Assembly (NCBI GenBank): GCA_037974665.1
Contig: CM075783.1
Location: 46,996,042-47,060,041, forward strand
Source: Ehretia macrophylla
Lineage: Eukaryota > Streptophyta > Magnoliopsida > Boraginales > Ehretiaceae
Direction: 5' to 3'
Length of the DNA: 64,000 nt
Part shown: piece after piece, positions 6,720-62,520 of the stretch
Layout of the letters: each line of letters opens with the position of its first letter
Position numbering within the stretch: position 1 is the stretch's first letter
The notes under the pieces: generated by a model
What the model was told of the DNA's origin: nothing
Databases searched by the model: none
Seen by the model: the letters and a program-made list of their open reading frames with translations, nothing else
Translations under genes and position numbers: made by a program

Positions 6720-9096
6720 CACTTTTCTATCTTATCTCGATTTGTGTGCTTTACCTCGTTTTGCGTGAATTGACCTGTTTATGTGCTATATGACTTAAAA
6801 TGTGTTAAATATGTGATTAATACTCCTAATACATGCTAAGTGTGCATTCATAAAATTTTCATAAAAAACGAAATCAGAAATTTTATCGCCGGTTTTGGTG
6901 AATAGTATTTTTGAACACCTGTCCGCTAAAATTTTTACAGGGGTGTTTTAAACGCTTTAAAACCTAGTCCTCGGGTATTAATAGACCCGTGTTTGATTAA
7001 AATGGATTTGGAATCGATTTTGAAATTTTAAAGATTTTTACACTTTCTTTTGCAAGAAAACGAGTTTTAAGCCGACTCGGGTGAAACTATTTTAATGTAA
7101 CACTCTTTGTCACCTAAAATATAAAGTCTAGAATTAATTTAGGTGTTAATTTAATAGTTGAGCAAGAAATAGTCAATAAAATGAATTAAAAGACTAGAAA
7201 ATAGAATTAAAAGACTAATAAAACTAACATTGACCATTTTTAATATGTTTGACCTTTACTTATATGCATCAACACACAATTGAAACAACACAAAACACAC
7301 TCCAAACACACACAAGGTGGCTGAAACTCCATGGCTTGTTTGTGAGCTTTTTCAACATCCTTTTCAAGCAAATTTTTCATTAAAAGTTGCAATTCAAGGC
7401 CAATTTCCATCAACCAAGACTTGATTCCACCTCTTGAGCATCCATTGAGCATCTTTGTAGCTTCAAAACACATCAAAGGTGAGAGAAAAATTCTATATCT
7501 CAAAAGTCATTTTTTATGTTTTTGCATATAATTGATTATTGAACCGTTAGAATGTTAATTTGAAGTTATATTAATGCTCAGTGCATGCTAAGGATCGATT
7601 ATATGTATTCTTGTAAGATTTGAACCGTTGTAGCATAAATTTTTATTTTCGGGTATTTAAAGTTGATAGATTGGCCATTTGTTGATTATTTTGAGTTGTA
7701 GTGGTTGAAATCGATTGTCATTGATTTCTAAAAGTTTGTTAATTACGTGGTAGCGCCATTATAATGCCGAATTTTCAATTGTGATGTTGCTGTGAAAATC
7801 CAAAAATTTCAGCCTAGGTGCATTGAGGTTTTAGGGTTGTTGGGCTTGATTTTGATGTGTCTTGGTTGGTTTCCGAGAGAGCTAATGTGGTTGATTGAAA
7901 GGGTGAGTGATAGAAACTGATTTGGAGTTGTTTGGATTAGTAGAATGTAAGATATGATTATTTGAAGTTTAGGTTGTCTTTCTTTAAAATGTTGAGTTAT
8001 GCCTTTAGATGATTGGGTGGTGTTTGAATGATTGAATTGTGAGTTGTTAATGGTTAGATTAAGGTTTCATTGTGTGTTTAATGCATGTTAAGTTGGATGG
8101 CCTACTTTGTCATCTAACTTAGTTGTTTGTGGTTTAATTGATTATTTGATGTTATATTGATGAAAAGATGATTATTGATTGATTATTGATGAACCGGGAG
8201 ATAGTCAACGAAAAAGGTTGTCTTCCTGTGATGTGATGTTTATTATTATTGCTGAGTCTTGGTATGTGTGTGCCACCTCTCGGGCAGCGTCGGGCTGATA
8301 ACGGCATGACTACCAGAGGCTACCCCCAGCTTGCATGACGGAGGTGTCATGGAGAGAGGGGATAGAGAGGTACCTCGGGTGCGTGAGTAATGGGGAGTTA
8401 TAAGAAGAACGGTTGAGATCGTGATGGCGTTTGGAGCTACACCAACTAGAGTATCCTTTATTGATTGGTCATTATAGTTATATGTTTATATTGTTATTAA
8501 TGTTTTATTGTGTGTTTACTGCTCAAAGGATCATTTCCAAGGAGTATAGTAAATACTGTTAGAGATCTATCGGATCCTCACTGAACTTGTTTTATATAAG
8601 CTCACTCTCTATTATTGCATGCATGTAGGTGTTACTGATTCCGATTACGGGTACGTTCCTCTTGAAGGGGAAAATGTGCCTTTCGTGGATGAGTCTTATG
8701 TGCAGGAGTGATTGCCATGAGATTGTTTGTAGTTGAAGTATTATGATGTATTATAAACCTACTTTAACTTAAAGACTTATGTATAATGGTGTAGTAGTCT
8801 TCTTTTTATCATGTTTAGATTACTAGTTGGTTTATAATCTATTTTGATATGTATGTATAGATTATGTATTATGTTGGAACGGAGGCGTATAACTAAGAAT
8901 GATTATTGTATAATATGGTTATGTTGTATATTGTTAACTTAATTGAGGAGTTAATTGTTGAATGGTTGAGGAGTTTGGTTGTATGATGTTCTGAGAGGTT
9001 GGTTTAGAGCCTCGGTGTCTTAATTACTATCGTTATATTGCCGAAATTCCGTTGCGTCCTGACTGATTGTAGGTGGAGTTGAGTTGGGGCGTGACA
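6720..9096 (+). mobile_element. Element B: 3' LTR (2.38 kb)
   Basis: It runs from TGTGAAACCCC to GGGCGTGACA. It is the same family as the LTRs of G, H, M and R, sharing long blocks such as the stretch before CTTATATGCATC. A TATA-like box lies at about 7259. Landmarks: donor 7478/7479 (AAAG|GTGAGA), CCTACTTTG hairpin 8090-8120, GTATCCTTT 8451-8459, branch-point hairpin 8582-8604 and acceptor TGTAG|GTG at 8628/8629. Element C sequence resumes right after the end, at 9097. Confidence 0.9.
7331..8711 (+). other. Candidate two-exon small-protein frame in LTR B
   Basis: Exon 1 runs from ATG 7331 to 7478 and exon 2 from 8629 to the TGA at 8709-8711; together 231 nt, a whole number of codons. One in-frame TGA (7343-7345) interrupts exon 1. 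The first part shares NSRP, LEHPLSIF and ASKHIKG stretches with LTRs G and H. The second is acidic (DYGYVPLEGENVPFVDESYV) and closely matches G and H. The product would have a basic start, a hydrophobic middle and an acidic tail. Splicing is inferred from consensus signals only; I do not recognise the protein. Confidence 0.5.
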
Positions 9097-13592: not shown

Positions 13593-15905
13593 TGTCACGC
13601 CCCGACCCGACCCCACAAAAGGCCATGTCCGGACCCGACATGCGGATGGATTCTCCTCTGTACCGTAGACAATCTTAAATCCCTACATTCAATAGAATAC
13701 ATGAGGAAACTACAATATTCATTTGAAACAAGACAACTTCCTTTGAAAACACACATTCTTTCATTAACCAACTTGATAAGAACCCAAAATGTCATGCATA
13801 CTACACATGTACTTATGCCACTAAGCAGTTAAAGCCATTAGCATGCAATGCGTTCCCTAGTCATTCGAGTACAGTCTTTTCAACTTTACAAACTTTTACC
13901 TTATACAGTACAAGACCATAAAGGCCTCAAAATAGAAACTACATACAAGGCTACAAGCCTCAAAATAAAGTGACAACCAAGAAGCATGTACATCAAGCAT
14001 GGCCCACCACAAAAGTTTGGCAACCAACCACCAGTTAAGCAAAGAAAGTGCAATCAAGGAAACACCTCCACTTGCTCCTTCTCCTCGTCGACCATCTCAA
14101 TAGGAACAACCTCAACTACTCTTGTGAACTATGGTATAGAAAGGGATGAGCAAAAACTATTGCTTAGCGAGGGTTAAATAGTCTCACAGGACAGAGGTGA
14201 GAGAAGAGTGCAATGCAAATAGCCAAGCAGGTCAATCAATTAAACATTTAAGAAGAACAAGACCAAACCAATCAAATAAGTCAAGACAAGCATTATAAGC
14301 ACTAAGGCTATAACTATTCAATTAAAGGATACAATTTACTTTCCACGAGCAACTTCAATCACGATTTCGATGACGACGCGCCTGCCCAACCACCTTATAA
14401 CTTCAGTTTGGAATACCCCAGAAGTACCCAATCAATACTACGACCTAAATCTTCCTAGGCGGTACCCCAAACAAGAAAGGGAATAGGACACAGAGCTAGA
14501 ACAACCAACCCTGGCAACCCGAGGCTACCAAGAGAGGCTCATCATACCTGCCCCTAACTCTATGGATGCAATACAATATATAATATAACAATCGAGTGAT
14601 AGAGCCATACGTGGGAGAATAACAAAGTAGGTTACCCTCGCATGCAATAGCAACAATTGATATACATTTCAATCCTTAATAAGTATAACAAGCATAATAA
14701 ACAACAACTAGCATTTTAAAAGCAAAGCACTATAAAAACCAACCCAATCACACAACGACCCCAACTTTTAAAATGCTACTACTTCCAAACCAGCCACGAG
14801 TTTTGGAAACTGACTTCACTACTCATCCTAAGACCGCATAAGGCACGACTAGAAGCCACAAAACCCTACTTTAATCTAGAATTCCCACAAAGCCCTGATT
14901 TACCCCTTTGCTCATTTGAACTATAGCTACCCTAACCAAACACCCAACCAATTCCATAACCACATCAAAAGTGCTTCCATGGCCTCCCGAGACAATACCA
15001 CCACGCAAAACAAGAAAATGCCAAACTCGACCGAAGTAACCCCAACATGAACCAAAGCATTTTTCTCTGTTTTTCCATTGCACAACCTATATAAACCACA
15101 CATTTAAGCATTCTAGCATATCTAGCACCTTTCCACATCAACAGAATGCAATACAAAACAAAATTTAAAAATGAGGGTTTTAATATTTATAATTTACTAT
15201 TCCATTGTCATTTTAAATTGCAATAGTCGAATTCAACTGTAGAAAATGGTAAAAACTCATAAATACATGTTCCACAATCATCAAGGAACATTCTTCAAGC
15301 AACAAAATGATCAAAATAACATTCTACACATAAATCCCAAAAATTAAAGTTTATACATGTATTCAAATGCGCAAATAACGATGCATCCCTCACCTTAGCT
15401 GCTATTAGATGCTAGGAAAACAACGTTGGAAACCCCGTGAACAATCCTAAGCAAGCCCATGCGAAGATGTGAAGATTTGAAGTTGAAAGGTTTTTTTTTT
15501 TTCTTTTTCCCTTGAAGTTTCGGCCCTAGCCATTTTTTTAGCTTTTGCTTTGTTTTTTGCTTGTATTATGCATATAAAAGATGACAACTCAAGGTCAAAG
15601 GCCAAGGTCTTGGTCAACCTAATTAAAATTGGTCTAGCTAAGTTATTTTTTTGACAAATTAAACTTAAAACAAGACAACAATTGCAATTCTAATTAAAAC
15701 TAACTAAACTATAAACACTAAAACTCTAAAAATACTAAAACACTATTTGTTGAAGACTAGAAAACCCTCTCTAGCTAACATTCTCGAAATGTGATGCACT
15801 TTACGACAATGAACCAAAAACATATAAACAACATAGAATTTTATAAAAACACAAATTCCAGAAAAAGAAACAAAAAAATTTCATGTTCTAGGCTCGGGTA
15901 TTACA
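13593..15905 (-). mobile_element. Element E: 5' LTR (2.31 kb)
   Basis: In plus coordinates it runs TGTCACGCCCC to CTCGGGTATTACA; in its own direction TGTAATACCCGAG to GGGCGTGACA. It is the same family as the three LTRs of array I. It holds the CCTACTTTG hairpin (14615-14639), branch-point hairpin (14147-14166), a GGTGAGGG donor near 15395 and an exon-2-like frame ending in EQVEVFP. Element F gag follows at 15906. Confidence 0.9.
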
Positions 15906-18135: not shown

Positions 18136-20535
18136 TGTGAGACCCCATATTTTGCCTTTACCTCGATTTGCGTATTTTATCTCGTTTTGCATGCTTTGAC
18201 CTATTTATGTGTTATATGAGTTAGAATATGCTAAATATGTGAATTATATTCCTAATACATGCTATGTGTGCATTCATGAAATTTACATCAAAAAATGGAA
18301 TCATAAATTTTATCGCCGGTTTTAGTGAATAGTATTTTTGAACACATGTTCGCTAAAATTTTTACAGGGGTGTTTTAAATGTTTTAAAACCTAGTCCTCG
18401 GGTATTAATGGACCTGTGTTTGATTAAAACGGATTTGGAATCGGTTTTGAAAATTTAAAGGTTTTTACACTTTCTTTTGCAAGAAATCGAGTTTTAAGCC
18501 GACTCGGGTAAAAATATTTAAATGTAAAACTATTTGTCACCTAAAATATATTGTCTAGAATTAATTTAGGTGTCAATTTAATAGTTGAGCAAGAAATAGT
18601 CAATAAATGAATTAAAAGACTAGAAATAATTAAAAGACTAAATAAAACTAACTTTGACTTTGCATTATTTTGTTTGACCTCAGCTTATATGCATCAACAC
18701 ACAATAGAAAGCACACAAAACACACTCACACATACACACATTGCCGTGAGCTCCATAGGAGAAAAGAGAAGGTTTTTCTTCAAGTTTTCAAAGGCAATTT
18801 TGCATTAGAAGTTGTAATTCAAGGCCAATTTTCATCAACCAAAGCTTGATTCCACCTCTTGAGCATCCATTGAGCATCTTTCTAGCTTCATAACACATCA
18901 AAGGTGAGAGAAAAATTCTAGATCTCAATTCTCATCTTTTATGTTTTTGCATATAATTGAATTTTGAACCGTTAGAAAGTTGAATTGATGTTATATTATT
19001 GCTCAGTGCATGCTAAGGATCATTTATATGCGTTTATATAAAATTTGAACCGTTGTAGCATGAATTTTTATTTTCGGGTATTAAAAGTTGAGTTGTTGGC
19101 TATTTGTTGAATATTTTGAGTTGTAGTGGTTTTAATCGATTGCCGTCGATTTGTAAAAGTTTGTTAAATACGGGGTAGTATCGTTGTAATGCCAAAATTT
19201 TGATTGTGATGTTGGTGTGAAAGTCAGGAAATTTCAGCCTAGGTGCAATTAGGTTTTAGGGTTGTTGGGCCTAATTTGGATGTATTTTGGTTGGTTTCTG
19301 AGGGGGCTAATGTAGTTGATTGAGTGAGTGAGTGATAGGAACTGGTTTGGAGTTGTTTGGATGAGTAGAATATAAGTTATGATTATGAGAAATTTAGGTT
19401 GTCTTTCTTTAAAATATTGATATATGCCTTTAGATTATACGGTGGTGTTTGAGTGATTGAATTGTGAGTTGTTGATGGTTAGATTAGGGTTTGGTTGTGT
19501 GTCTAATGCATGTTAAGTTGGGTGGCCTACTTTGTCATCTAACTTAGTTGTTTAGTTGTTAATTGATTAATTGATGTTATGTTGTTGAAATGTTAATAAT
19601 TGATTGATGATTAATTGATTATTGATTATTGATGAACTGAGAGATAGTCAACGGAAAAGGTTGTCCTCTTGTGATTGAATGTTTATTTTTATTGTTGAGT
19701 CTTGATATACGTGTGCCACATCTCAAGCGGTATCGGGCCGTCGGGTTGAAAATGACATGGCTATCAGAGGCTACCCTCATCTCGCATGGGCGGAGATGCC
19801 ATGGAGGGTAGGGCTAGTGAGGTACCTCGGGTGTGTGTGTCATGGTGGTGATAAGAAGTTGGTTGAGATCGTGATGGTGTTTTGAGCTACACCAACTAGA
19901 GTATCCTTTATTTATTGGTCATTATAGTTTATGTGTTTATATTATTATTGATGCTTATTGTGTGTTTACTGCTCAAAGGATGATTTCCAAGGAGTATAGT
20001 AAATACTGTTAGAAATCTATCGAATCCTCACTGGGCTTGTTTTATATAAGCTCACTCTCAATTATTGCATGCATACATGTGTTACCGATCCAAATTACGG
20101 GTATATGCCTCCAGAAGAGGATTATGTGCCATATGTGGACGAGTCCTACGTGCCAGAGTCTTGTCCCTTATTTATGATGTCGTATTCTTTTGTTATATTG
20201 TATATTAAACTTAGTAGTCTTTCTTTTGATTATGATTAGGTTGCTAAGTTGGTTTCAATCTGTTTTGCAATTTATATTAAAGTTAATGTATTATGTTGGA
20301 ACGGAGGCGTATACCTAAGAATGGATTGTTGAAAGAATGGTTATTGTATAATATGGTTGTATTGTATGATGTTAACTTAATTGAGGAGTTGATTGTTGAA
20401 TTGTTTGTGGAGTTTGGTTGTATGAGTTCTGAAGAGTTTGGTTTAGAGCCTCGGTGTCTTAATTACTATCGTTATACTACCAAAATTCCGTTGCGTCCTG
20501 ACTGATCGTAGGAGGGGTCGAGTTAGGGCGTGACA
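18136..20535 (+). mobile_element. Element G: 5' LTR (2.40 kb)
   Basis: It runs from TGTGAGACCCC to GGGCGTGACA, of the B/H/M/R family. A TATA-like CTTATATGC lies near 18684. Landmarks: AAAG|GTGAGA donor near 18904, CCTACTTTG hairpin 19515-19545, GTATCCTTT 19901-19909 and branch-point hairpin 20032-20054. The acceptor is damaged: the 3' LTR has ATACAG, this copy has ATACAT. In its frame the candidate small-protein exon has ATA in place of ATG and a TAA before the donor. Confidence 0.92.
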
Positions 20536-21462: not shown

Positions 21463-23230
21463 ATGAAGGCATTTTCAAAGTATTTTTCTCATAGATTTTG
21501 CATTTCAAAGCCGAATTGAGTGATTCAAAGCTTGAAATTGATTGTTTGGCATCCATTCTACACATTTCTTGCATCAAAACACATCAAAGGTGAGAGAAAA
21601 ATTCTAGATCTCAAAATGTCATTTTTATGTTTTTGCATATAAATGAAGATTGAACCGTTAGAATTGTAATCTGATGTTAGATTATTGCTCCTTGCATGCT
21701 AGGGATCGTTTAGTGGTAATACTACGAGTTTCTGTCGGATGTAGCATAATTTTTATTTTTTGAGTATTAAATTTTGATTAAATTGTTCAATGTTGAATTA
21801 ATTGAGTTGCGTTGATCGAAATCGATTGCCGTCGATTTCTAAATACTTGATAATTACGTGGTAGCGCCGTTGTAATGCCGAATTTTCGATTGTGATGTCC
21901 GTGCCAAAATCTGGAAATTTCAGCCATGATACACTAGGGTTTTAGGGTTATTGGGCATGATTTGGATGTGTTTTGGTTTGTTTCCGAGGGGGCTAATGTA
22001 GTTGATTGAATGGGTGAGTGTTTGAAACTGATTTGGAGTTGTTTGGATTAGTAAAATGTAAGATATGATTATTTGAAGTTTAGGTTGTCTTTCTTTAAAT
22101 TGTTGAATTGAGCCTTTAGATGATTGGGTGGTATTTGAGTGATTGAATTGTGAGTTGTTAATGGTTAGACTAGGGTTAGATTACGTGTTTCATGCATGTT
22201 AAGTTGGATGGCCTACTTTGTCATCTAAGTTAGTTGTTTGTTGTTTAATTAAATATTGATGTTATATTGATGTTATATTGATTATTATTGAGTATGGGAA
22301 TCGGGCATTTTTGTTGCTGATCTCCCAGTTTATTTATTGATTATTGATTACGGGAATCGGGCACTTTTGTTGCTGATCTCCCTGTTTATTTATTTATTAT
22401 TGAGTATGGGAATCGGGCACTTTTGTTGCTGATCTCCCAGTTTATTTATTGATTATTGATTACGGGAATCGGGCACTTTTGTTGCTGATCTCCCTGTTTA
22501 TTTATTTATTATTGAGTATGGGAATCGGGCACTTTTGTTGCTGATCTCCCAGTTTATTTATTGATTATTGATTACGGGAATCAGACACTTTTGTTGCTGA
22601 TCTCCCTGTTTATTTATTTATTATTGAGTACGGGAATCGGGCACTTTTGTTGCTGATCTCCCAGTTTATTTATTGATTATTGATTACGGGAATCGGGCAC
22701 TTTTGTTGCTGATCTCTCGGTTTATTTATGTTGAGTCTCATTGTTGTGAGCTTTGATAATGTTGGGTCACCTCGGGAGGCATCCTGGGCTGCGGGCACAG
22801 TTATCATGGCTAATCCCTATCTCGCATGGGCGAAGAGGCCATGGGGTGTGGGTCTAGGTCAAGGTACCTCAGGAATTGTGTCATTGAGTTTGGAGGAGTT
22901 GTTGAGCATGGAATTGGTGTATGGGGCTTCATCAGCAAATGTATCGTATCCTTATTGTGTGTTTACAGTTATTACTATTGTTGCATTTATAATGATTATT
23001 GATGTTCATTGTGTGTTTACTGACTCAAAGGATTATTCCAAAGAGTTTAGTAAACCTTGTTCGAGATCTATCATATCCTCGCTGGGCTTATTTTATATAA
23101 GCTCACTCTCTATTATTGCATGCATACAGGTGTACTATCGCAGGATTACGGGTACGTGCCTCCTGAAGAGGAGAATGTGGAAAATGTGCCTTACGTGGAT
23201 GAGTCATATGTCCCTGAGTCTTATCCATGA
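21463..23230 (+). other. Candidate two-exon small-protein frame in solo LTR H
   Basis: Exon 1 is ATG 21463 to 21589 and exon 2 is 23130 to the TGA at 23228-23230; 228 nt in total, in frame. One in-frame TGA at 21517-21519 could be a deaminated CGA. Exon 1 shares WHPFYTFLASKHIKG-like residues with B and the IQSL/FY/IKG pattern with M. Exon 2 has DYGYVPPEEENV and VPYVDESYVPES, with an in-frame 9-base insertion relative to B. In-frame length change and conserved residues suggest past selection on protein. Expression is not shown. Confidence 0.5.
22280..22727 (+). repeat. 56-bp tandem repeat with 112-bp higher-order period
   Basis: GGGAATCGGGCACTTTTGTT starts at 22296, 22352, 22408, 22464, 22520, 22576, 22632 and 22688, exactly 56 bases apart, with one unit carrying CAGAC for CGGGC. 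Units alternate between a CTCCCAG form and a CTCCCTG form (the last has CTCTCGG), giving a 112-bp dimer repeated four times. Confidence 0.95.
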
Positions 23231-31359: not shown

Positions 31360-31652
31360 AGTAGCAATTTCACAATAGCTGGCAACATTTAAAAGCAGTT
31401 TATAGACAGAAATATAGCACATAAAATTAGATAACACTCAAGTCAATAACAATCCAATATTCTATCACACAATTCACATAAGACAAGTTTAACTTGCCAA
31501 ACTATTTCACTTAAACACATAAACATTCCAAGTTCACAAAGTCATGCTAGAACATTTTCTTTTTACTTAGCAATCATACATAAACACTTTAGCATTTTAG
31601 ACCTTTACCCCACAGACTGAGAATCATATCCCAGCTCATGCAAGACTATCAT

Positions 31653-31664
31653 GCTCTGATACCA
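31653..31664 (-). other. Array I, copy 1: primer binding site
   Basis: On the minus strand TGGTATCAGAGC, matching initiator tRNA-Met, eight bases after the middle LTR. Confidence 0.92.
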
Positions 31665-31672
31665 CCTAAAGA

Positions 31673-33942
31673 TGTCACGCCCCGACCCGACCCCGCAAAA
31701 GGCCAAGCCCGGACACGACACACGGACGGAGTCTCCTCTGTACCGCAGACGATCCGAAAACCCTAAAATCAATATAATACTTGCGAAAGCCATATAATAA
31801 TCAAAACAAGCCAACTTTCTTTAAAAACATACATTTCTTATTATCCAACTTTCCAAACCAAAAATGATATGCATACTACACAAGTACTTATGCCACTAAT
31901 CAATTCCATTAGCATGCATTTTCTTACTAGTCACAAGAGTATAAGTTACAACTTTACATTCTTCCAACTTATACAACATAAGACCGTAGAGGCCTCAAAC
32001 TAGAAAATATATACAAGGCTACAAGCCTCAAAATTAAGCGACCTCCACGCAATATACATATCATGCAAGGCTCGCACAAAAATCTGGCAACCAACCACCA
32101 GCAAAGCAAAGAAGTGCAATCACGGGAACACCTCCACCTGTTCCTCCTCCTCAATTACCTCGAGAGGGTCTGCTTCAACTACTCCTGTAAAAATATGGTA
32201 TAGAAAGGAATGAGCAAAAACTATTGCTCAGCGAGGGCAATTGGTCTCAAGGACGGAGATGAGAGGAGTATGCAATGCAATTAGCCAAGCAATGTATACA
32301 TATATCATACCGAGATATAACAAAGCCATCAACAAAGCAAGGCAAGCATTAAAGCTATAAACACTCATTCAAAGGATACGATACTCTTTTTCACGAGCAA
32401 CTTTCATACACGAATTCGATGACGACGCGCCGGCCCAAACCACCTTATAACACCAGTTTGGAATACCCCGGAAGTATCCATCAACCTACGACCCAAATCT
32501 CCCTGGGAGGCAACCCAAGCGAGAAAGGGAATAGCAGCGGAGCTAGAGCAACCAACACTGGCAACCCAAGGCTACCCAGAGAGGCCCATCACTCACGCGC
32601 GAGACACTATGCAATGCAAGACTCGATACAAGGCGATAAACAAGCGATAAAGCCACACGTGGGAGAATAACAAAGTAGGTTACTCTCGCACGCAATAGGA
32701 GCAATTGATAAGCAATTCAATCCAAAACAACTCAAACAAGTATTTCAAGTAATTCTAAGCATTCTATAGGCATAAAGACAAGAAAACACACAAAAACACA
32801 AATCGACCCCAACTATCAAAATGCTACCATTTCCAAACGAGCCACGAGTTCTGGAAACCAACTTCGCCAACCCTCCTAGGTCACCATAAGGCACGTCTAA
32901 AGACCCCGAAACCTTTCTTTACCCTAGAACTCGCGCAAAGCCCCGGTTTCCCCCTTTCTCGTTTGAACTACAACTATAACAACCAACGCCACAATCGCAC
33001 CAAAAGTGCTTCCATGGCCTCCCGAAACAATGCCAACACGCAAAACGAGAAAACGCTAAAGTCGACCTAAACGACCCCGACTTTCCCAAAGGCATAATTC
33101 TCGTTTTTTCCACTACGCAACCCAAAAAAACCACACATTTTAGCATTCTAGTGTACCTAGCACATTTCTACATCAACAGAAAGCATAACAGCGCAACTTC
33201 AACGTTTCAAGGTTTTACTATTCATAAAACACTATTCAATTAGCAATTTAATTTGCAATCACAACATTTAACCGTAGAAAATGTTACAAAGCTATAAATA
33301 CATGTTCTACAAATGCCAAGGAACATACTAGAAACATCAAATCGCTTTAAATAACGATCTACGGATAAATCTCAAAATTGACAAAGTTAACCTACATAAC
33401 GTTTAAATGTGCAAATAACATGCTTCCCTCACCTCAGGTACTCCTAGTCGCTAGGAAAACAACGCTAGTTGCCTCAGAAATCACCCCGCACGAGCTCACG
33501 CGAAGATTGAATGATTGGAAGTTGAAATCTTTTTTTTCTTTCTCTCTTGTTTCGGCCTGGTCCTCACTGTTTTCAGTTGCAATTTCTTTTTTTATTTTGC
33601 TTAGTTTTAGCTTATAAGGTGTTTAGTTGGTCAACAAGTCAAGGTCCTAGGTCAAACTACTTAAAACTTGGTCAAAGAGCCTAATTTTGTGCATTTTAAA
33701 GCCATTTTAGCTAAGGTAAGATCAATTAAAGCTAGCAACATTTAAAATATAAAATTTAAGTCATCTAAACACTAGTTTCACTATTTGCTGAGGACTGGAA
33801 ATCGTTCTCTAGCTATCGCTCCTTAAATGCAATGCACGTTGCGACGACGAGAAAGTAACAATTAATTCACAAAGAATTTAAGGAAATATAATTTTCAAAA
33901 TAATAAACAAAGAATTTTCACATTCCGGGCTCGGGTATTACA
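31673..33942 (-). mobile_element. Array I: middle LTR shared by both copies (2.27 kb)
   Basis: Complete LTR, in its own direction TGTAATACCCGAG to GGGCGTGACA. It serves as 3' LTR of copy 2 (PPT on its right) and 5' LTR of copy 1 (primer site on its left). Landmarks: TATA-like CCTTATAAG near 33612, donor GAG|GTGAGG near 33432, CCTACTTTG hairpin 32663-32687, branch-point hairpin 32211-32230, acceptor TTACAG and exon-2-like frame 32184-32120 ending EQVEVFP. Several bases differ from both outer LTRs where the outer two agree. Confidence 0.95.
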
Positions 33943-33978
33943 CCCTCTCCCCCTTAGAACAATTGCGCCCACGCAATT
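33943..33978 (-). other. Array I, copy 2: pre-PPT hairpin and polypurine tract
   Basis: The stem AATTGCG/CGCAATT (33961-33967, 33972-33978, loop CCCA) precedes the minus-strand purine run TCTAAGGGGGAGAGGG next to the LTR. Confidence 0.85.
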
Positions 33979-38569: not shown

Positions 38570-38862
38570 AGTAGCAATTTCACAATAGCTGGCAACATTT
38601 AAAAGCAGTTTATAGACAGAAATATAGCACATAAAATTAGATAACACTCAAGTCAATAACAATCCAATATTCTATCACACAATTCACATAAGACAAGTTT
38701 AACTTGCCAAACTATTTCACTTAAACACATAAACATTCCAAGTTCACAAAGTCATGCTAGAACATTTTCTTTTCACTTAGCAATCATACATAAACACTTT
38801 AGCATTTTAGACCTTTACCCCACAGACCGAGAATCATATCCCGGCTCATGCAAGACTATCAT

Positions 38863-38874
38863 GCTCTGATACCA
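38863..38874 (-). other. Array I, copy 2: primer binding site
   Basis: On the minus strand TGGTATCAGAGC, matching initiator tRNA-Met. Confidence 0.92.
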
Positions 38875-38882
38875 CCTAAAGA

Positions 38883-42596: not shown

Positions 42597-42626
42597 CTCA
42601 CACACACACACACACACACACACACT
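42597..42626. repeat. (CA)n microsatellite in G 3' LTR
   Basis: About 14 CA units. The matching place in the 5' LTR (near 18724) has only a short mixed CACA/TACA tract, so it expanded after insertion. Confidence 0.9.
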
Positions 42627-43020
42627 GTCGTGAGTTCCATAGGAGAAAAGAGAAGGTTTTTCTTCAAGTTTTCAAAGGCAATTTTGCATTAGAAGTTGTA
42701 ATTCAAGGCCAATTTCCAACAACCAAAGCTTGATTCCACCTCTTGAGCATCCATTGAGCATCTTTCTAGCTTCATAACATATCAAAGGTGAGAGAAAAAT
42801 CCTAGATCTCAATTGTCATCTTTTATGTTTTTACGTATAATTGAATTTTGATCCGTTAGAAAGTTGAATTGATGTTATATTATTGCTCAGTGAATGCTAA
42901 GAATCGTTTATATGCGTTTATATAAAATTTGAACCATTGTAGCATGAATTTTTATTTTTTGGTATTAAAAGTTGAGTTGTTGGCTATTTGTTGAATATTT
43001 TGAGTTGTAGTAGTTGGAAT

Positions 43021-46000
43021 TGTAAAGCCCCGACCCTCACGAGACCGGAGGCTCTAGTAACCATGCTATTCTCAACCGCATCCCAACCCGGGCACATATT
43101 TTAGGAAAAACGGACAGAGTTTTTCCTGTACCGTGGACATTCTGGAAACCTGTAAGCATTCAAATAAAACATGAAGCAAAGGAACAACATTTCTAATTGA
43201 AATCCCAACTTCAAGGCCATCCGAGCCTTAAGCAACACAAGACAATATAAACACATACAAGCATGCAACGTAGCTAGAAGCAGAAGCATAAGTTATTACA
43301 TGCCACAATTCCATAACACTTACTACATCTACTTAGCTTTCAAATTGCAACTACTCAAATATATATACATAAGCCCTTAGGCTCCAAAATAGAACATAAA
43401 GTAGACAAGCAAGGTCTTCTACAGTTTAGCAAGCAATCACTCCAATCTCAAGTAATAGTACACAGCAACCAAGGCAACTTCTCCAACTGCACCACCTGAA
43501 ACATGTTTAGTGAGGTATGAGCAATCACAATTGCTCAGTGAGGGATAAGGTTTACCGGGGACGTGCAATGCAGCAACTTAACACAATTAATACAATAGAT
43601 AAACAGTGAATAACAGTTCTAATACCACATTTTAAAAGGATACAATCGATAACTCTTATCATTCCAAATCTTCGATCCCCGATCCACGAACCACGATCTC
43701 AATCTCGATATGCCGGCATCCCTTACACCAATAGGTACTCCGGATGTACCCGATCCTATGACCCAACACCCCCTGGCAATCTCCAGACCAGGCGAGTGAG
43801 GGAATAGCAGACGGAGCTAAGGCAACCAACACTGGCAAACCCGATGCCGCCCAGCGAGGCCATCGCATCCGCCACGACAATGAGGTTGCGCAACCACAAT
43901 GCAATGCAAGAATGATAACAATGACAATATAATCAGTAAACACATTTAAGGACAAAAAGTAGGTTGTCCTCGCACTAAGTTACAATTTAGCAACAATAAG
44001 CATATATCAATTACGCAATTATACTAAACAATATACTCTTTTAGCAAGAAAATAAACTATAATGCACGTAAGGATGCAGGTCCCTCACCTTTTAGGAAGC
44101 CAAACTTGCGCGAATTAAGCCAAGATTCCCTCAATATTCTCCAAAAGCATCAATTCCTTTCAATTATCACTACCTAATACAATCAACTATATGCATAAGG
44201 AGTGATTTCTTATTCTCAACTAAAGCTAGTTCATAAAGCCATTAATTTATCCAACTCTATTTGATTCCCTTTAATTCACATAACTAACAATATATTTCAT
44301 GGTTTAACAATCATTCTAATCAATATTTGAACAATACATAAACTCAAGTGATCACATATGCAACATTCTTTAATTTTTAAGTATCAGACAAAGACAATAG
44401 CATAATAAATAACATATACATAGCCATTCATATAAGTAGAAACACTATATAACATCTAACCAATAAGTTATATAAGCGTATCTTTACACATATAATGCAA
44501 TTAATAAGCAATATAAACATGTTTACTCAATCTTTAACTAGTATTGATATAACTTAAATCACAACTTCTCCGAATAGATGAACTTGTTACATAAGTACAT
44601 TTAAACATTTATCCAATCAATCAAGAATCAACTAACAACAATTATTACCATGGTTCATTACTTGTTCCTTAAGTCCATTCTAAATTCATACTCAACCAAA
44701 TCCATATAAACCAAGCAACTTAATTCATGAGACTTCACTACTATAATACGTACACTACACAAAGGCATATAAACATTTAATTACTCAATTATAAAACAAT
44801 TATCATGAAATTAACTATGCGAACACAAAGGGGTCAATATTATACTTTTCACAAAACTTAACCAAAAGCTCACACATACCTTAGAATAGCATTTAGACAC
44901 GCTAGGAGCAACTACAAAGCAATACAAGTACTAAAGCAATTAATTCATTCATTTCCCCTTTGTTCAACTAGGCTATTTAGCTTCTTATCGGAATTCAATG
45001 ATCAAGTTAAGCTAGCTAACCATCCTACCAATCTAAGGATACCTAAATACCTCATTTAGAACCTCCAAATCATAACCTAGAGCACAAGTACACGAAAACA
45101 CCAAAAATGCCTCTTTGTGGGTTTACACTACAAGTACCAATTTTGAAACCCAAACAAGCGAAACGAAAGCACTTCTAAGGTTTCAATACTTAATAAAGAC
45201 TAGCCATAACTTCGAAATGTGCCCGGATTCAAGTTAAACCCAAAACCCCTTATTAAAGTAGCCTATTTTGATCAAATTTCTCAAATTTTGAACATAGCAA
45301 GTGCAATTAACATTTTTCCCACGCTTATGGACCTAATTAGCAACTACTAGAAGCCTTGAATCGAATTAAATTGTAACTTTTTTCGGAAACCCTAGTTTAG
45401 CACTATTCATCATCTTCCCAAGTGCCATTTTCATTTTCAAGCATTCAACAAGCATTTTAAACCATCAAACATATTTTATGAAGTCATTAGAGCATATAAG
45501 AATCAACGGAACAAGAATTAAATCACTACAATATTAGATCACAAAAATAATAATACAAACTTTAATTGAATTTAATACAAAAATAGAATGCACCCTCACC
45601 TCTTTTGAAGATCAAAGAATGGTCTTAAGGTCCTAAGGATGAAGCACAACCAATTTGGGAAGCAATGGAAGCAAGAATGAAGCAAGGAGTAATTTTTTTT
45701 TTGAGAAATTACTATTCCCGTAACTCTTTTTTGGCCATTTTTTTGACCCATTTTTCTTTTTGTTTCTTGGCTTATAATATTCTCATGAGATGGTCAAATG
45801 GTAGGTCAAGCAATTAGGGTATTTTAGTAAGGGTAAATGGGTCATTTTGGTGATTAAATTTCAGCAAAACAAAATGCCAAAAATCTGAAAAATATGGAAA
45901 AATCCCGTTAGTACTATTCATCAAACATTTCGCGAATTTTTTTCCGTTGATACTGATATGCAATGCACGCACGGTCAGGGGCTATAGTCCCCCAAAAATA

Positions 46001-46146
46001 TGTAGTATTTTATAAAAATATAAAATGCATGAACAAAAACAGTTGAATTTATGAAAATATGAAAAAATGAAGTAATTAGCTAAATTACATCTAAGTTAAC
46101 CATTTAATGAATGCAATTAATGAAGTGCTGGGTTCGAGATGTCACA
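43021..46146 (-). mobile_element. Solo LTR J (3.13 kb) with perfect 5-bp TSD
   Basis: In its own direction it runs from TGTGACATCTCG to GGGGCTTTACA. Flanked by GGAAT at 43016-43020 and 46147-46151. No internal region. It shares the GC-rich block with A and P (words GCGCAACC and TCCGGA), the CCTACTTT hairpin (43948-43971, arms GAGGACAA/TTGTCCTT) and a perfect branch-point hairpin TGAGCAAT/ATTGCTCA (43518-43537). Two GGTGAGGG donor-like sites lie near 44095 and 45600. Confidence 0.93.
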
Positions 46147-47557
46147 GGAATCGACTGCCGTTGATTTGTAAAAGTTTGTTAAATACGGGGTAGTACCGTT
46201 GTAATGCCAAAATTTTGATTGTGATGTCGGTGTGAAAGTCTAGAAATTTCAGCCTAGGTGCATTGAGGTTTTAGGGTTGTTGGGCTTGATTTGGATGTAT
46301 TTTGGTTGGTTTCCGAGGGGACTAATGTAGTTGATTGAGTGAGTGAGTGATAGGAACTAGTTTGGAGTTGTTTGGATTAGTAGAGTGTAAGTTATGATTA
46401 TTAGAAGTTTAGGTTGTCTTTCTTTAAAATGTTGATATATGCCTTTAGATGATCGGGTGGTGTTTGAGTGATTAAATTGTGAGTTGTTGATGGTTAGATT
46501 AGGGTTTGGTTGTATGTCTAATGCATGTTAAGCTGGGTGGCCTACTTTGTCATCTAACTTAGTTGTTTAGTTGTTAATTGATTAATCGATGTTATGTTGT
46601 TAAAATGTTATTAATTGATTGATGATTAATTGATTATTGATTATTGATTATTGATGAACCGGGAGATAGTCAATGGAAAAGGTTGTCCTCTTGTGATTGA
46701 ATGTTTATTTTTATTGTTGAGTCTTGATATACGTGTGCCACCTCTCAGGCGGTATCGAGCCGTCGGGTTGAAAACGACATGGCTATCAGAGGCTACCCTC
46801 ATCTCGCATAGGCAGAGATGCCATGGAGGGCAAGGCTAGTGAGGTACCTTGGGTGTGTATGTCATGGGGGTGATAAGAATTTGGTTGAGATCGTGATGGC
46901 GTTTGGAGCTACACCAACTAGAGTATCCTTTATTGATTGGTCATTATAGTTTATGTGTTTATATTGTTATTGATGTTTATTGTGTGTTTACTGCTCAAAG
47001 GATGATTTCCAAGGAGTATAGTAAATACTGTTAGAGATCTATCGAATCCTCACTGGGCTTGTTTTATATAAGCTCACTCTCAATTATTGCATGCATACAG
47101 GTGTTACCGATCCAGATTACGGGTACGTGCCTCCAGAAGAGGATTATGTGCCATATGTGGACGAGTCCTACATGCTAGAGTCTTGTCCCTGATTTATGAT
47201 GTCGTACTCTTTTGTTATATTGTATATTAAACTTAGTAGTCTTTCTTTTGATTATGGTTAGGTTGCTAAGTTGGTTTCAATCTGTTTTGCAATGTATATT
47301 AAAGTTAATGTATTATGTTGGAACAGAGGCGTATACCTAAGAATGGATTGTTGAATGAATGGTTATTGTATAATATGGTTGTGTTGTATGTTGTTAACTT
47401 AATTGAGGAGTTGATTGTTGAATTGTTTATGGAGTTTGGTTGTATGAGTTCTAAAAAGGTTGGTTTAGAGCCTCAGTGTCTTAATTACTGTCGTTATATT
47501 GCCAAAATTCTGTTGCGTCCTGACTGATCGTAGGAGGGGTCTAGTTGGGGCGTGACA

Positions 47558-49615
47558 AGATTTGTGTAGGATTTCTCCAAAATAGCAAACCCATTGACAA
47601 AGCTCACACAGAAGAAGGTTCCTTTTATTTGGGACGATAAGTGTGAGAAGAGTTTTCAAGAGTTGAAAAAAAGGTTAACTTCAACTCGTATCTTGGTATT
47701 ACCTAAAGGAAATCAAGGGTATGAAGTGTATAGTGACGCATCTGAAGGAGGATTAGGTTGTGTTCTAATGCATAACGGCAAGGTCGCTGCATATGCGTCT
47801 AGGAAGTTGAAACCATACGAGGTAAATTACCCCACTCATGATTTAGAATTGGCAGTTGTGGTGTTTGTACTTAAAAAGTGGAAACATTATCTTTGGGGAA
47901 ATACTTTCTAGATCCACACGGATCATAAGATTTTGAAGTATATGTTCTCTCAAAAGGAGTTGAATATAAGACAACGAAGGTGGATGGAATTGCTGGGAGA
48001 TCATAATTGCAATATTAATTACGTTCTAGGCAAAGCGAATGTAGTGCCAGATGCTTTAAGCCAAAAAAGTAGTCTGGTAACTCTAGCTATTCAGGAATGG
48101 AATATGCTAGAGACAGTTAGTGAATGGAAGTTGGAAGAAAAGTCCAGTCAAGTGGTAATGAGCAGGTTGACAATTCAATCGACCCTGATAACAAGAATTA
48201 GGGAAGCTCAGTAGGTTAGTTCAGAGCTTGGTAAGCTCAAGGACAAGCTTGAGGATGTGAAGTTAGGTGAGGATGGCTCATGGAGATTTAAGAATCGAAT
48301 TTATATACCTGAAAATCTAGAGTTGAGGAATGAAATTCTCCATGAAGCTCATAATTCGTGGTATACTCTACATCCTGAAGGAAACAAGATGTATCAGGAC
48401 CTTAAGCAGGGTTACTGGTGGAATGGGATGAAGAAAGATATAGCTACCTTTGTGGCTCGATGCTTGACTTGTCAAAACATTAAGATGAACACCAGCGACC
48501 TGCAGGATTACTACAACCACTAAAAATTCCCGAATGGAAGTAGGAACATGTCACTATGGATTTTGTGATACATCTTCCTAGAACCCCTCGAGGTAATGAC
48601 TCGGTTTCAATTGTAGTGGATCGATTGACCAAGTCTATACACTTTATAGCCGTTAACCAACAGGACAGACTTCAAAAGTTGGAAGATTTGTATGTAAAGA
48701 ATGTAGTAAGGCTACATGGCGTACCTTCCAGTATAGTGTCAGACAGAGATCCACGTTTTACCTCACAATTTTGGGAAAAGCTACAAGAAGCTTACGGTTT
48801 AGTACCGCCTTTCATCTGCAGACCGATGGACAGTCTGAATGGACTATCCAAATCCTAGAAGGTATGTTACGAGCCTATAACCTGGACTTTAGAGGAAGTT
48901 GGGCAGATCGACTACCGTTGGTCGAATTTGCCTATAACAACAATTATCAAACATCTATAGGCATGGCACCTTTTGAGGCTCTTTACGGACGAAAGTGTAA
49001 ATCCCCGTTATATTGGGATGATGATGGGGAAAGAAAGATCATGGCACCTGATAGCTTGGAGAAAATAGAAAATGTGAAACTAATCAGGGAATGAATCTTG
49101 GCAGCACAAAACTGCCAAAAGAGTTACGCTGACAAGTGTAGAAGGGAGTTAGAATTCAAGGTTGGAGACAAGGTATTTCTAAAGTTACACCCTAGGAAAG
49201 GGTTTGTACGATATGGAAAAGGTAGGAAGCTAAGTCCTAGGTATATTGGACCGTATCAGATTATTAAAAGGATTGGCAAAGCTGCCTATCATTTATCATT
49301 GCCTGAGGAGTTGGGTAATCTGCAAGATGTGTTTCACGTTTCAGTACTCCAGAAATATCACCCGGATCCCACACATGTACTGGAACCTGAACCTTTGGAG
49401 TTAAACCAATATCTCACCTATGTGAAACAGCCTGTCAAGGTTGTTGACGAGCAGATTAAGGAACTGTGATACGAGAAGATACCAATGGTCAAAGTGTTAT
49501 GGAATCAATGTAACGCAGGGGACGTGACTTGGGAAGGCAGAAAACGCATGGAAACTGAGTATCCGATTCTGTTTCAATAAATTTTAAGGATGAAATTTTT
49601 GTAAGGGGGAAAGGA
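47558..49615 (+). pseudogene. Element F: RNase H and integrase (3' piece)
   Basis: It continues the gene broken at 18135: DFSK ... [14 protein letters not shown], RNase H ([13 protein letters not shown], 47730), integrase finger (HNSWYTLHPEGNKMYQDL to CLTCQ, 48350-48470), DDE core (MDFVIHLPRTP, IVSDRDPRF, and the glutamate region near 48830, frameshifted), GPY/F module (49215-49320) and chromodomain-like end (49480-49570). Stops and shifts at 47909, 48212, 48521, 48541, about 48800, 49092 (CGA) and 49467 (CGA). Ends at the hairpin AAATTTTA/TGAAATTT (49579-49598) and purine tract before the LTR. Confidence 0.92.
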
Positions 49616-55274: not shown

Positions 55275-56289
55275 GTTAACCATAATCTGTTACACATATA
55301 TAAGACCTCGATCCACCTGTTCAATCATAAAGACTAGCCAAATATATACAAGACTTCGATTCACTTGTTCAATCATAAAGAATAGCCAACTATCAGGTAT
55401 CTAGGTCTCAAAAGAATATGAATAATAAACTTAATTACATATAGTTGTCCAAAAGAATATTACATATATAATGTTGTCCTAATAGTGTTTGAGTTCAATT
55501 AACAAGCAAGCTTATCACAATAAGGAGAAATCATTCTCGTCAACCAAGGTTCTCCATCATCAACTTGAGGGGCCTGTTCAGGCACTGCCTCAAATGTATT
55601 TGATCAAAAGACAGGTGAGGTAATCTTGCATATAGCTTAGTGAGGATGCAATAGGAAGGGTTTTCATAAGGTTTATATTTAAGAAATCAGTTGATGAAAC
55701 ATGCAATACACATATGAATATACAAGCAAGAAACAAGTTACACATTCGAGATTTGATGACAGTTAAATACCCTAACTCTTCCAAGATATCACTAGATCCT
55801 GATCCGAAGAAGGATCAGTGGGTCCTAACAAGAGCAGGAATCAATACTTTGAGGGTCAAGATATACCGGTAAGCCCGTCACTGCCTAGAGGTCCCGTCAC
55901 TTCTTCAATTTATAATGGTTATAACTGCCACGCACAAGAAATTCAAATTCATTTGCAATTAAAGTATAAAAAGAGGAGTTACCCATCTAACAACATATAT
56001 CAATTGTTATTGCTCAACCACATGTTAACACTGAACTAAAGACTAAAGGTTAAACAACAATGGCTTAACAACATGATAGTTAACTTAATAGCATGATAGA
56101 CAGTAGTAGATAGCAATTAGATAAGGTAGATAGCACTAGATAGCATAATTATTAACAAGTAGAATATATAGAAGCAATAGCTAACCGATTAAGGCAACAT
56201 ACAAGTTAAGACATGATAACAAAAATAATGTGCAAGTCAAACGCCGAAAGAGGCTTAACATAAACAAGCAGAGGGGTTTAGATGAGGAT

Positions 56290-56480
56290 AACCGAATTAG
56301 GCCTTATTCGGGTCCTTCATCAGGGCCACGGCTTCACAACTGGATGAGGCCATTGGATGAGGCCTCATCCGATCCTCATTTGGTGCCAAAAGTTGGCACC
56401 GGACAAGGGTGACCGGATAAGGTTCCATTTGGTTCCTCATCCGGTCCCCAGGGGTGCCATCCGATGAGGCTAAGCCCCGT
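56290..56480. repeat. Palindrome-rich block in LTR C
   Basis: Perfect palindrome GGATGAGGCCTCATCC (56355-56370) and a perfect stem GGTGCCAA/TTGGCACC with a 3-base loop (56382-56400), among several GGATGAGG variants. The LTR of L has a matching block with different stems. Confidence 0.8.
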
Positions 56481-57234
56481 CCGATAGTTCTGACATTCTG
56501 AACTTTGCATACAAACCTGCAAACCTTTTTCCTATTCAAGAGAGTTTGTTAGACCTTGTTAGACAGCTCTGTTACATTTATTCAACATATATATCAAGCA
56601 ATTTCTTAGAAACCCTTTAGAATAAACTCAACTCAACTTAACTCCTATCAACTCAACAAGCACATAAACACTTGATTCATAGCGTATGATCGTTTTAAAA
56701 CTTTTAGAAAACATCCCTTACCTTAGCATAAGAAATGAGAAATCCTAGTAGAAGAAAGATGACCCTCCAGCTAGGAAATGCGAGAATGAAAATGTTTGAA
56801 TCTCTATTCTCCTTCTTCTTCCTTTCTTATCTTCTCTTTTTTCTCTTCTAGCTTAGCTGTATAAATATGTATAAAGTATATCTGATCGTGTGTTGTGTGT
56901 CTAGGCTATGTTTGGTAAGATATTTTGCTAAATTGTCCAAATGACTATAGTGCCCCTAACTAAAAGCCTATTTTCTTGCCTGCCATGTTGTCCCATTCTA
57001 AATGCTCTAGGTCTAATTTAATTATTGTAGTTATCTAGTATTTGTATCAGAGTCTAATTATACATGCATCCTCTAGACTACTCAAATGCACGTTAAATGA
57101 TGAAATGCACATAAATCGAGATAAACTCACATAGACCAATATAAAAGCATATAAAAAAAGTAAATACAAGTAAAATGATCTTATTATGCAAGATATGAGT
57201 TATATGCACATGTGGTCTCGGGTCGGGCTTTACA

Positions 57235-57618: not shown

Positions 57619-58026
57619 TGTAAGGCCCAGCACGAGACCTCACATGCATATATGTCATATCATGCATAAATAAATCAATTGTATCTTCACCTTGTTTTAT
57701 ATGCTTTTATAGTGAATTATGTGCATTTATCTCGATTTATGTGCACGTCATCGTTTAACATGCAATTAGGTGTTGTAGGTATTGTACGAAGTTAATTAAA
57801 TACTATTGGACTAAGCCTAGCAACTAACTAGTTAGCAAACAACTAGAATGGCATGGAATAAATAGCATTAAGTTACAAGGGCAAGGTGGTCTTTTGGACC
57901 TTAGATATTATTCTACCATCACAAATACATACACATTACACACACACATATCTGAAAACACACACACCCACTTGATACACACATACTGCACACCACACTC
58001 AGATTTTCGTCCATAGGAAGGAGAGA

Positions 58027-59735
58027 ATGAAGGGAGAGAAGAGAGGAAGGAAGGAAGAGGAAGAAGAAGAGGACAAAGAAGAAGTTCAGCTACTCCAAGC
58101 TTTTCCTTTGCATTTTCTTGCTTTCTTCAAGGTTATTTTAGCTCATCTTTATCTAGACTTCAAGAACAAAGGTGAGGGATTCTTCAAAACTAATTTTTAA
58201 ATGCTCATTCAAGGTTACATGATACTCATTTGGTGTTAATCTTGATTGTAGTATACATACGAGAGCCTAATGTAAAGATTGAGTATTTTGATGTGTAGTA
58301 GATCTAGAACTTGTTTAACTTGAGTTGGAGGTTCTTGAGAAGTTGAAAGATGAGCTTGGTATTGTTCTTATGTATGTGCTGAAGTATACAACTTGTATAT
58401 AAGAATTGGAAGTGTGAGGTTAGAATTTTTGGTATTTAGATGTTGGTATGGGTGTTTATGAGCTATAATGGATTATAGGTAGTTTGCATCTTGATTATTG
58501 GTGTGGAGTGTTTTTGGTTGATGTTTGAACTCTTGTATGATGCCTAATAGTCACCTTGAGCATGCTTGATTGTTAGTAGAAGGTTGTGTTATTGCATGAT
58601 TGATTGTTTGTAGAAGGTTGTGTTGTCCCATAATCAGCATGACCGGTTGACCCCTACTCAACCGGTTGACCGGAAGAGGAGACCTCTTCCATTAGAGAAG
58701 CTCTGGGGGGGAAGACCCTATTTGAACCGGTCAACCGGTTGCTCTAGGGTCTATCAGTTTGATTAAAAAATACAATGAACTTGTTTTAGTGATTCCGGGA
58801 GCTACAAATATCGAATTGGGGCGTGGTCGGTGGCGTTAGAACCGTATTGAAACCTAAATTATTATAGTTGAATTTAATTGTGGATTTGTACCATAGTTTG
58901 GGTGCTATGTAGATACAAACTTCTATATGTTGCTTAGGAGACTATAGAACGTAGGCAATATTGATGACTTTTGTCAAACATGATCCATAAACATTACATG
59001 GCATTATTTGAAGCACTGTAGCTGTGTATATGCATGTAGGATATGTACTTGCTTGCGTACGTCATTTAGTATTCATATATATATATATATATACATGTGA
59101 AGCTTGCATGCTTAAATGATACATTGTTGATATTACTGTTGTGACAGAAGCAGCCTACTTTGTTGCTATCCTTGTCCCTCTCTCTCTTGGTGACATCCTT
59201 TGAAGAGTTGGGTATTATATACATATATATATATATATATACCTTTGATCGATGGGCCCAGGCAGCAACAGGCTTGCCGGTTATACCCACAACCACCATG
59301 GACCTATTATTTACCTTTGAGGGGAGATATCCGGAACCTTCAGTTGTTGATGGAGTTGGTGTCGGGTTTTCTTTGAGGACTTGATCTTCGGTTGTGGTGC
59401 CGGGTTATCATTAATTGATTCGAGGAAGGAACCATTAACATCAGCAATCAATGTATCCTTTTGCAAGAAGTATCTCTGTTCATTATCTTATTGCATACTT
59501 GAGTTATTATTTGTTTACTTACATGTGCATTCTTATGTGCATGGCATGATTTCTCAAATTGTTTGCGAAAAGAGAAAACCATTGCGTAAACCCTTCCTAT
59601 TTTATCCTCACTAAGCTATATGTAGGATTAGCTCACCCCTCTTTTAACCTTTCAGGCAAGGCAGAGGCTGAGCAGGCACTTCAAGGTGATGGCGAAACCC
59701 CTTGGTGTGACATTGAGGATTTCTGCCTTATGTGA
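58027..59735 (+). other. Candidate two-exon small-protein gene in LTR L (uninterrupted)
   Basis: Exon 1 is 58027-58171 and exon 2 is 59656-59735; joined they give 225 nt, an ATG-to-TGA frame of 74 codons without any stop. The intron (1484 nt) has strong plant-type ends (AAAG|GTGAGGG; CTCAC branch-like word, pyrimidine tract, TTTCAG|G). The product would have a basic, acidic-rich start (MKGEKRGRKEEEEE), a hydrophobic middle (FPLHFLAFFKVILAHLYL) at the exon end, and an acidic tail with GETPWCDIEDF. Family member C keeps the tail pattern DxxDFxL in decayed form. I do not recognise it; no function is claimed. Confidence 0.55.
58640..58745. repeat. Palindrome-rich block in LTR L
   Basis: A perfect 14-base inverted repeat, AACCGGTTGACCGG (58660-58673) and its complement (58727-58740), encloses a perfect 8-bp stem GGAAGAGG/CCTCTTCC with a 3-base loop (58672-58690). 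Confidence 0.85.
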
Positions 59736-62318: not shown

Positions 62319-62520
62319 CTTTAATCCAAAGCAACTCTAGGAATAGGTAGAATAGGTGCCCAACAAGCAAAAACAAGCTTTGAATGATGTGATTTGGCCT
62401 TGAAATGAAGATTTTGCTTTGAAAAATGCTTTGAAACCTAAGTGAAAAATCTCTTTTTTCTCTCCCAAGGCTCACGGCAATGTGTGTGAGTTTTGAGTGT
62501 GTTTTATGCTTTGTTTTCAT
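62319..62520 (-). other. Candidate first exon of the small-protein frame in LTR M
   Basis: Minus strand, from ATG 62520 to the GTAAGG donor, 202 nt with no stop and in the same phase as B, H and L. Shares ISRPN, IQSL, FY and IKG positions with B and H, and has a hydrophobic stretch (LFLLVGHLFYLFLELLW). The second exon is lost beyond the Q insertion. Confidence 0.5.

Follow-up and report, generated by a model that had tools for sequence, protein, structure and literature searches.

Introduction

In barley BARE1 (Ty1/copia) and in Drosophila copia, a spliced RNA encodes Gag only and the unspliced RNA keeps Gag-Pol; in BARE1, a 104-nt intron is removed and a new stop is reached three residues past gag, as passages of PMC3735527 describe. 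For Ogre, a Ty3/gypsy element of pea and Medicago, passages of PMC6317226 describe partially spliced transcripts, with the intron lying between the gag-pro and RT-RH-INT frames.

Here we describe LTRs in a 64,000-nt stretch of Ehretia macrophylla DNA (contig CM075783.1 of assembly GCA_037974665.1; hereafter, the window). The likeness to BARE1 and copia, as those passages portray them, is that splicing just past gag would yield Gag without Pol, an arrangement that we propose from DNA alone; the difference from BARE1 is that here the acceptor, the tail and the stop would sit in the 3' LTR of Ty3/gypsy elements, with the tail under selection. Like Ogre in the published description cited, these would be plant Ty3/gypsy elements that set their protein products by partial splicing, although the Ogre intron lies outside the LTR. 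What would be new relative to splicing in BARE1, copia and Ogre is a terminal exon that sits in the LTR and is under selection, and among titles and abstracts we found no plant LTR with a coding terminal exon.

The superantigen gene of MMTV encodes a protein within the LTR and is expressed from a spliced RNA. It resembles the present case in the coding use of an LTR, but it is a retroviral LTR gene, and we claim no relation. Non-autonomous TR-GAG elements are LTR elements with gag and no pol, as is one element discussed below (L099). Plant Ty3/gypsy elements often have a single gag-pol frame, and to our knowledge it is poorly understood how they produce an excess of Gag; a constrained LTR exon in phase with the end of gag would offer a specific and testable answer.

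Results and Discussion

LTRs in the window share a splice architecture

The original prediction placed in LTR L a spliced small-protein gene, conserved across retrotransposon families. Several of its observations hold. The L frame (58027-58171 joined to 59656-59735) comprises 74 codons and is open to a TGA; the frames proposed for LTRs B and H lie in the same phase, with one in-frame stop each; the first exon of LTR M (62520-62319) is open; and the three junctions (58171/59656, 7478/8629 and 21589/23130) are all GT...AG. Four LTRs of the window are related to one another: B, G (18136-20535), H and K, the last of which is interrupted by a nested insertion. Minus-strand LTRs T, 14k and X have the same arrangement. 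LTR T (33943-31671) was examined in full and is the source of all T exon-1 data, and two more T copies carry the same exon 2. The features are as follows.

57995..58171, plus strand: LTR L exon-1-like leader, start approximate; GAA-rich then T-rich; donor after 58171; non-coding by comparison
58172..59655, plus strand: LTR L intron-like stretch; 3' end with context common to other LTRs
59656..59735, plus strand: LTR L exon 2; acidic frame to TGA; coding constraint among L copies not detected
7331..7478, plus strand: LTR B exon-1-like leader; donor after 7478
8629..8711, plus strand: LTR B putative exon 2 coding tail, VTDSDYGYVPLEGENVPFVDESYVQE; window copy ends 3 codons ahead of the family
18715..18903, plus strand: LTR G exon-1-like leader, start approximate; donor after 18903
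20079..20167, plus strand: LTR G exon 2; in the window copy the acceptor AG is AT and the stop is lost
21463..21589, plus strand: LTR H exon-1-like leader; donor after 21589
23130..23230, plus strand: LTR H putative exon 2 coding tail, VLSQDYGYVPPEEENVENVPYVDESYVPESYP then stop; copy comparison given below
42600..42787, plus strand: LTR K exon-1-like leader, start approximate; donor after 42787
47101..47192, plus strand: LTR K putative exon 2 coding tail, VTDPDYGYVPPEEDYVPYVDESYMLESCP then stop, from copy comparison
33433..33602, minus strand: LTR T exon-1-like leader, start approximate; no ATG; TGA at the junction; donor after 33433
32120..32184, minus strand: LTR T putative exon 2 coding tail, VVEADPLEVIEEEEQVEVFP then stop; equivalents at 25749-25813 and 39330-39394
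15394..15563, minus strand: LTR 14k exon-1-like leader, start approximate; TAA at the junction; donor after 15394
14054..14120, minus strand: LTR 14k putative exon 2 coding tail, VVEVVPIEMVDEEKEQVEVFP then stop; window copy acceptor ACAAG, not ACAG
55515..55591, minus strand: LTR X exon 2, L-like, decayed, limits approximate; donor after 56722, TAA at the junction
62319..62520, minus strand: LTR M open first exon; no exon 2 recognised for M

Comparison shows the donor and the 3' splice region repeated in three LTR groups (B, G, H and K; L and X; T and 14k). Because further donors of the same kind occur across the LTRs of the window (after 18903 and 42787 and, on the minus strand, after 56722, 33433 and 15394), we regard this architecture as more than chance. 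Within the L family, the donor GT is kept in 28 of 31 aligned rows and the acceptor AG in 26 of 31; in the window, G has a damaged acceptor, and X and 14k have altered ones. The LTRs also have in common a pre-acceptor context, consisting of CCTC, CT with an AGC-like block, a CTCA block and then YAG, and a short hairpin (TGRGC...GCTCA) may form ahead of the acceptor in B, G, H, K and T. In several LTRs, TATA-like boxes, recognised partly by eye, lie 5' of exon 1. Given the recurrent donors, the shared pre-acceptor context and the TATA-like boxes, we take the intron as likely to be real, and its genuine splicing is probable. An intronless K LTR was sought by its junction pattern throughout the genome (1.58 Gb in 20 contigs), and no match with up to 3 mismatches was found; this result fits the packaging of unspliced RNA, without demonstrating such packaging.

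The intron-like stretch of LTR H contains a 56-bp tandem repeat (window 22159-22830), and by eye there are CCGG-containing repeated motifs in the corresponding stretches of L (58640-58750) and X (56330-56490).

Copy comparisons point to a coding exon 2 in two lineages

In both of the lineages in which we find constraint, exon 2 opens in phase 1 and specifies an acidic tail of about 20-32 residues that ends in TGA (for example, DYGYVPPEEDYVPYVDESYVPESCP and VVPIEVVEEEEEQVEVFP). Between representatives of the B, H and K families, pS was 0.52 and pN 0.16 in the predicted frame, a ratio of 0.32, as against pN/pS of 1.80 and 1.03 in the other two frames; the B-K (P 0.0026) and K-H (P 0.0015) pairs were significant, and the B-H pair (P 0.42) was not. 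Across the four window copies (B, G, H and K), variability at the three codon positions of exon 2 was 0.095/0.134/0.297, with 0.039/0.053/0.086 just upstream and 0.214/0.353/0.214 downstream. Of 52 distinct rows, 48 keep the B, H and K frame up to a stop at codon 29 or 32; the four others include the copies of B and G in the window. The stop of this LTR B (8709-8711) is peculiar to it: the 20 other B-family rows all continue past that point, and 18 of these end in QESLP. Nine distinct H copies contain six synonymous variants and one replacement, where the expected synonymous fraction is 0.247. Indels in exon 2 are mostly of 3 or 9 nt. Resident copies drift neutrally, with synonymous to nonsynonymous counts of 9:20 in K and 7:16 in B, as is expected if selection acts on active masters. 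A search of a protein database with the H frame found no homologue.

The T and 14k LTRs have a different-looking exon 2 with a similar pattern. Compared in frame, T and 14k differ with a pS of 0.74 (9.5 of 12.8 synonymous sites) and a pN of 0.14 (6.5 of 47.2 nonsynonymous sites), which was not so in the other frames. The T-lineage alignment holds 24 rows, 4 from the window and 20 of the 39 other matches. Variants found in at least 3 of the 24 rows comprised 14 synonymous and 7 nonsynonymous changes (25% synonymous expected) and fell 4/2/15 by codon position, and all indels were of 3 nt. The three T copies are near-identical in exon 2; keeping only one of them left 7 synonymous to 4 nonsynonymous variants (P 0.008), and omitting them, with variants in at least 2 rows counted, gave 9 to 6. 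When all variants were counted, the ratio was 18:23, or 12:21 without the T copies (P 0.10). Given this weaker count, the T-lineage signal rests on the shared variants together with the T-14k difference.

Sliding codon-phase scans of the LTRs placed exon 2 first, both for B, G, H and K and for T against 14k, and other coding stretches were rejected on this ground. For the four B, G, H and K copies, the highest-ranking stretch fell on exon 2 (0.161), yet the 95% null maximum was 0.174; for T against 14k, the share was 0.75 for exon 2 and 0.70 for the runner-up, which lies at 32867 and contains a stop.

Exon 2 of L behaves otherwise. Its variability by codon position is without bias (0.193/0.181/0.191), and pN is close to pS between most L subgroups. 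Comparison thus indicates that exon 2 is constrained as protein in the B, H and K lineage and, in different-looking sequence, in T and 14k, but not in L, and we consider exon 2 very probably coding.

Might exon 2 instead be conserved as RNA or splicing sequence, downstream of an intron that serves the 5' leader only, with its coding signal a coincidence? Purine-rich exons resemble splicing enhancers, which would suit this reading, as would the unconstrained exon 2 of L and the observation that in B, H and K the pre-acceptor stretch (window 8560-8628 and its equivalents) is less variable than exon 2 itself (0.059 versus 0.175). Such a coincidence would, however, have to explain why third codon positions vary in excess, and in one phase, in each of two divergent lineages, why most indels are of 3 or 9 nt and why the TGA is conserved; we judge it unlikely.

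Exon 1 lacks a conserved start

The predicted gene was to have a start of its own in exon 1. Of 31 aligned L-family rows (the window copy and 30 of 40 fetched loci, the other ten covering exon 1 too poorly), the window copy alone has the ATG at 58027; elsewhere the position reads AAG (19 rows), AAA (7), GAA (2) or a gap (2). Exon 1 of L also differs between copies by 1-nt indels. A frame that begins with ATG, runs for 15 codons or more and stays open as far as the junction in the predicted phase occurs in 4 of 65 exon-1 rows: 3 of 31 in L, the single M row, none of 16 in K (15 aligned K rows, from 20 fetched loci and the window, plus G), none of 13 in H (8 distinct copies, one partial, since five were fetched twice) and none in B, T, 14k or X. 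A stop falls exactly at the exon 1/exon 2 junction in T, 14k and X. In T, that stop is a TGA and exon 1 is without an ATG, though the T element has an open gag-pol frame of 1052 codons.

Measures of constraint on exon 1 were mild at most. Between T and 14k, pS/pN was 0.40/0.33 in the predicted frame and 0.32/0.34 and 0.39/0.32 in the others, which is neutral. In the last 66 nt of B, H and K exon 1, pN/pS was 0.59 in the predicted frame versus 1.25 and 0.87, a mild signal from eight representatives whose pairs are non-independent. Variability by codon position over 20 rows, two of them indel-shifted, was nearly flat (0.30/0.31/0.33). We looked for coding in another frame of exon 1 and rejected it, as no frame is clearly constrained either in B, H and K or between T and 14k. 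Comparison thus indicates that exon 1 has no clear constraint and no conserved start.

These data bear on the possibility that each LTR contains, complete in itself, a gene of two exons whose product would have about 75 residues, with a basic start, a hydrophobic middle and an acidic tail. Promoter, leader, intron and stop all lie inside the LTR, the L frame is open, those of H and B are nearly so, and M exon 1 is open; the in-frame value of 0.59 in B, H and K is the main result in favour of such a gene, a mild and unexplained signal that a gag partner for exon 2 does not predict. Against the gene stand the few rows with an ATG open to the junction (none in K or H), the junction stops of T, 14k and X, the 1-nt indels in L and the neutral T-14k comparison, and it seems improbable. 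The L frame itself looks fortuitous, with a private start and an exon 2 without codon bias. From these results, we conclude that the original observation is partly confirmed and its interpretation partly supported: the recurrent splice architecture and a coding exon 2 inside the LTR stand and the two-exon gene does not; the frame is conserved across families for exon 2 of B, G, H, K, T and 14k, and not clearly for exon 1 or for L; and the synonymous excess and the mostly frame-preserving indels belong to exon 2, with 1-nt indels and in-frame stops in exon 1.

K- and H-type LTRs include several strongly divergent exon-1 subtypes (window 42654-47562; genome copies L065-L098), among which the donor, the intron start and exon 2 are near-identical. 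This pattern suggests that the promoter and leader part may have been swapped repeatedly between the K- and H-type families.

The elements are of the Ty3/gypsy type

Matches to Retrotrans_gag, RVP_2, RVT_1 and RT_RNaseH lie in that order in window 35270-38425 (minus strand), and an integrase-type SH3 domain lies in the downstream ORF at 33957-34676 (minus strand). The T-type element is a Ty3/gypsy (Metaviridae) element, with gag, protease, RT and RNase H in order and integrase after RT. At the integrase C-terminus, no model at E<=0.001 indicated a chromodomain, the mark of Tekay/Del chromoviruses. By eye, a primer binding site, TGGTATCAGAGC, which we take to be of the iMet type, follows the T LTR and occurs at the start of L099, and a purine run (PPT) precedes the LTR. 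The H element L099 has the TR-GAG features of LTRs, a gag frame and no pol; its internal region is 2.2 kb long, and its gag contains in-frame stops. A filler stretch lies 3' of gag in L099.

Candidate partners of exon 2

As exon 1 has no conserved start, another phase-1 exon should supply the start of the exon-2 protein. At the gag/protease border of T1, T2, B and H, GAA or AAA is followed by GGT, creating AG/GT in phase 1 (the slash marks the splice point); in T1, T2, B and L099, the gag end reads AG/GTA. The protein at this border is VVEG or VVKG.

37360, minus strand: candidate gag-end donor of element T1, GTG GAA G/GT ACA, phase 1; inferred exon-2 partner
30150 (minus strand), 3320 (plus strand) and 12063 (minus strand, after a TAA): equivalents of the T1 donor

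The gag-end donor and the exon-2 acceptor are both in phase 1 in T, B and H, a match that could be a 1-in-3 coincidence, and exon 2 ends in a stop. AG/GT is intact in 14 of 16 T-lineage gag-end copies from the 39 other matches, and the 14k window copy has a TAA ahead of the donor. Because third-base identity among all three sequences is frequent elsewhere in the gag-end alignment (17 of 49 codons), donor conservation counts for little in favour of gag. The H gag-end copies are too alike to inform on the donor. In most of 20 other copies of this gag end, a stop lies in the truncated protease remnant. L099 has no pol, though H exon 2 is constrained, and we therefore argue, from this one H element checked for pol, for a partner within gag or the LTR. 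A spliced gag/exon 2 retrocopy of T or H gave no match with up to 3 mismatches in the 1.58 Gb. With T gag plus tail as the query, the protein database returned a single gag-like protein; the match is 80% identical and spans 68% of the query, and it leaves the tail aside. We infer gag as the partner from phase, position and conservation: its end (GAAG/GTA) fits best, a tentative assignment to which we give slightly less than an even chance.

Exon 2 could instead be a tail of pol, joined from a donor where the integrase region ends (TCAA/GTAAGAATTT). B, M and one K copy (L083) have such a donor in the right phase, but the phase is 0 in T and 2 in L, and by eye the pol-less L099 has no such donor. 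With phase 1 in B and M only, the pol-end donor was rejected as a general partner, and this origin of the tail is extremely unlikely. Exon 2 might also be joined from another phase-1 donor within gag or pol, away from the gag/protease border; T1 gag does have further phase-1 donor-like sites, and we give this very little probability. An unspliced micro-ORF would dispense with a partner altogether. Window copies B, G, H and K have an in-frame ATG just 5' of the acceptor (ATG CAT RYA GGT), which could start a peptide of 33-36 residues; in T, by eye, the upstream frame of exon 2 reaches a stop without an in-frame ATG before the acceptor, so this reading does not cover both constrained lineages, and unspliced RNA has other ATGs further 5'. 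It is very unlikely.

A proposed model with a gag end spliced into the 3' LTR

Our preferred reading, with the gag end as the partner, can be set out as follows. Each of these LTRs (~2.3-2.9 kb) begins this series with a TATA-like promoter, followed by a leader exon that lacks a conserved coding frame. An intron of ~1.1-1.5 kb, its 3' splice region conserved, comes next, and last is a terminal exon, opening in phase 1, for a short acidic tail and TGA. Transcription would begin near the TATA box of the 5' LTR, and the leader intron could be removed by joining exon 1 to exon 2, so that the 5' leader is spliced. The counterpart of this acceptor in the 3' LTR would take the gag end at the gag/protease border, with glycine as the junction codon. 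The resulting Gag-only mRNA would drop pro-pol and the 3' LTR up to exon 2, and its last 20-32 residues and stop would be LTR-encoded. Unspliced RNA would be the Gag-Pol mRNA and the genome; as full-length unspliced RNA would be the template for reverse transcription, the intron would be kept in the LTRs.

A leader intron, a constrained terminal exon and a Gag-only mRNA with an LTR tail together may be the best explanation of the sequence comparisons, although we would put its chances at just under half. The wider proposal is that a broad plant Ty3/gypsy group splices gag into the 3' LTR, giving Gag and not Gag-Pol an LTR-encoded acidic tail and stop, with the same acceptor splicing the 5' LTR leader; this is possible but on balance rather doubtful. 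These LTRs appear not to be simply non-coding. Solo LTRs would scatter acceptors with a coding tail and stop across the genome, which bears on gene annotation and exonisation, and, if the model is true, they would be portable terminal exons for host genes.

The three related T LTR copies occupy window 25303-41040 at spacings of ~6.4 and 7.2 kb, with gag-pol in between. They form a tandem LTR-internal-LTR-internal-LTR array that probably arose by unequal recombination. The first of them (25.3-27.4 kb) matches the other T copies poorly on its 5' side.
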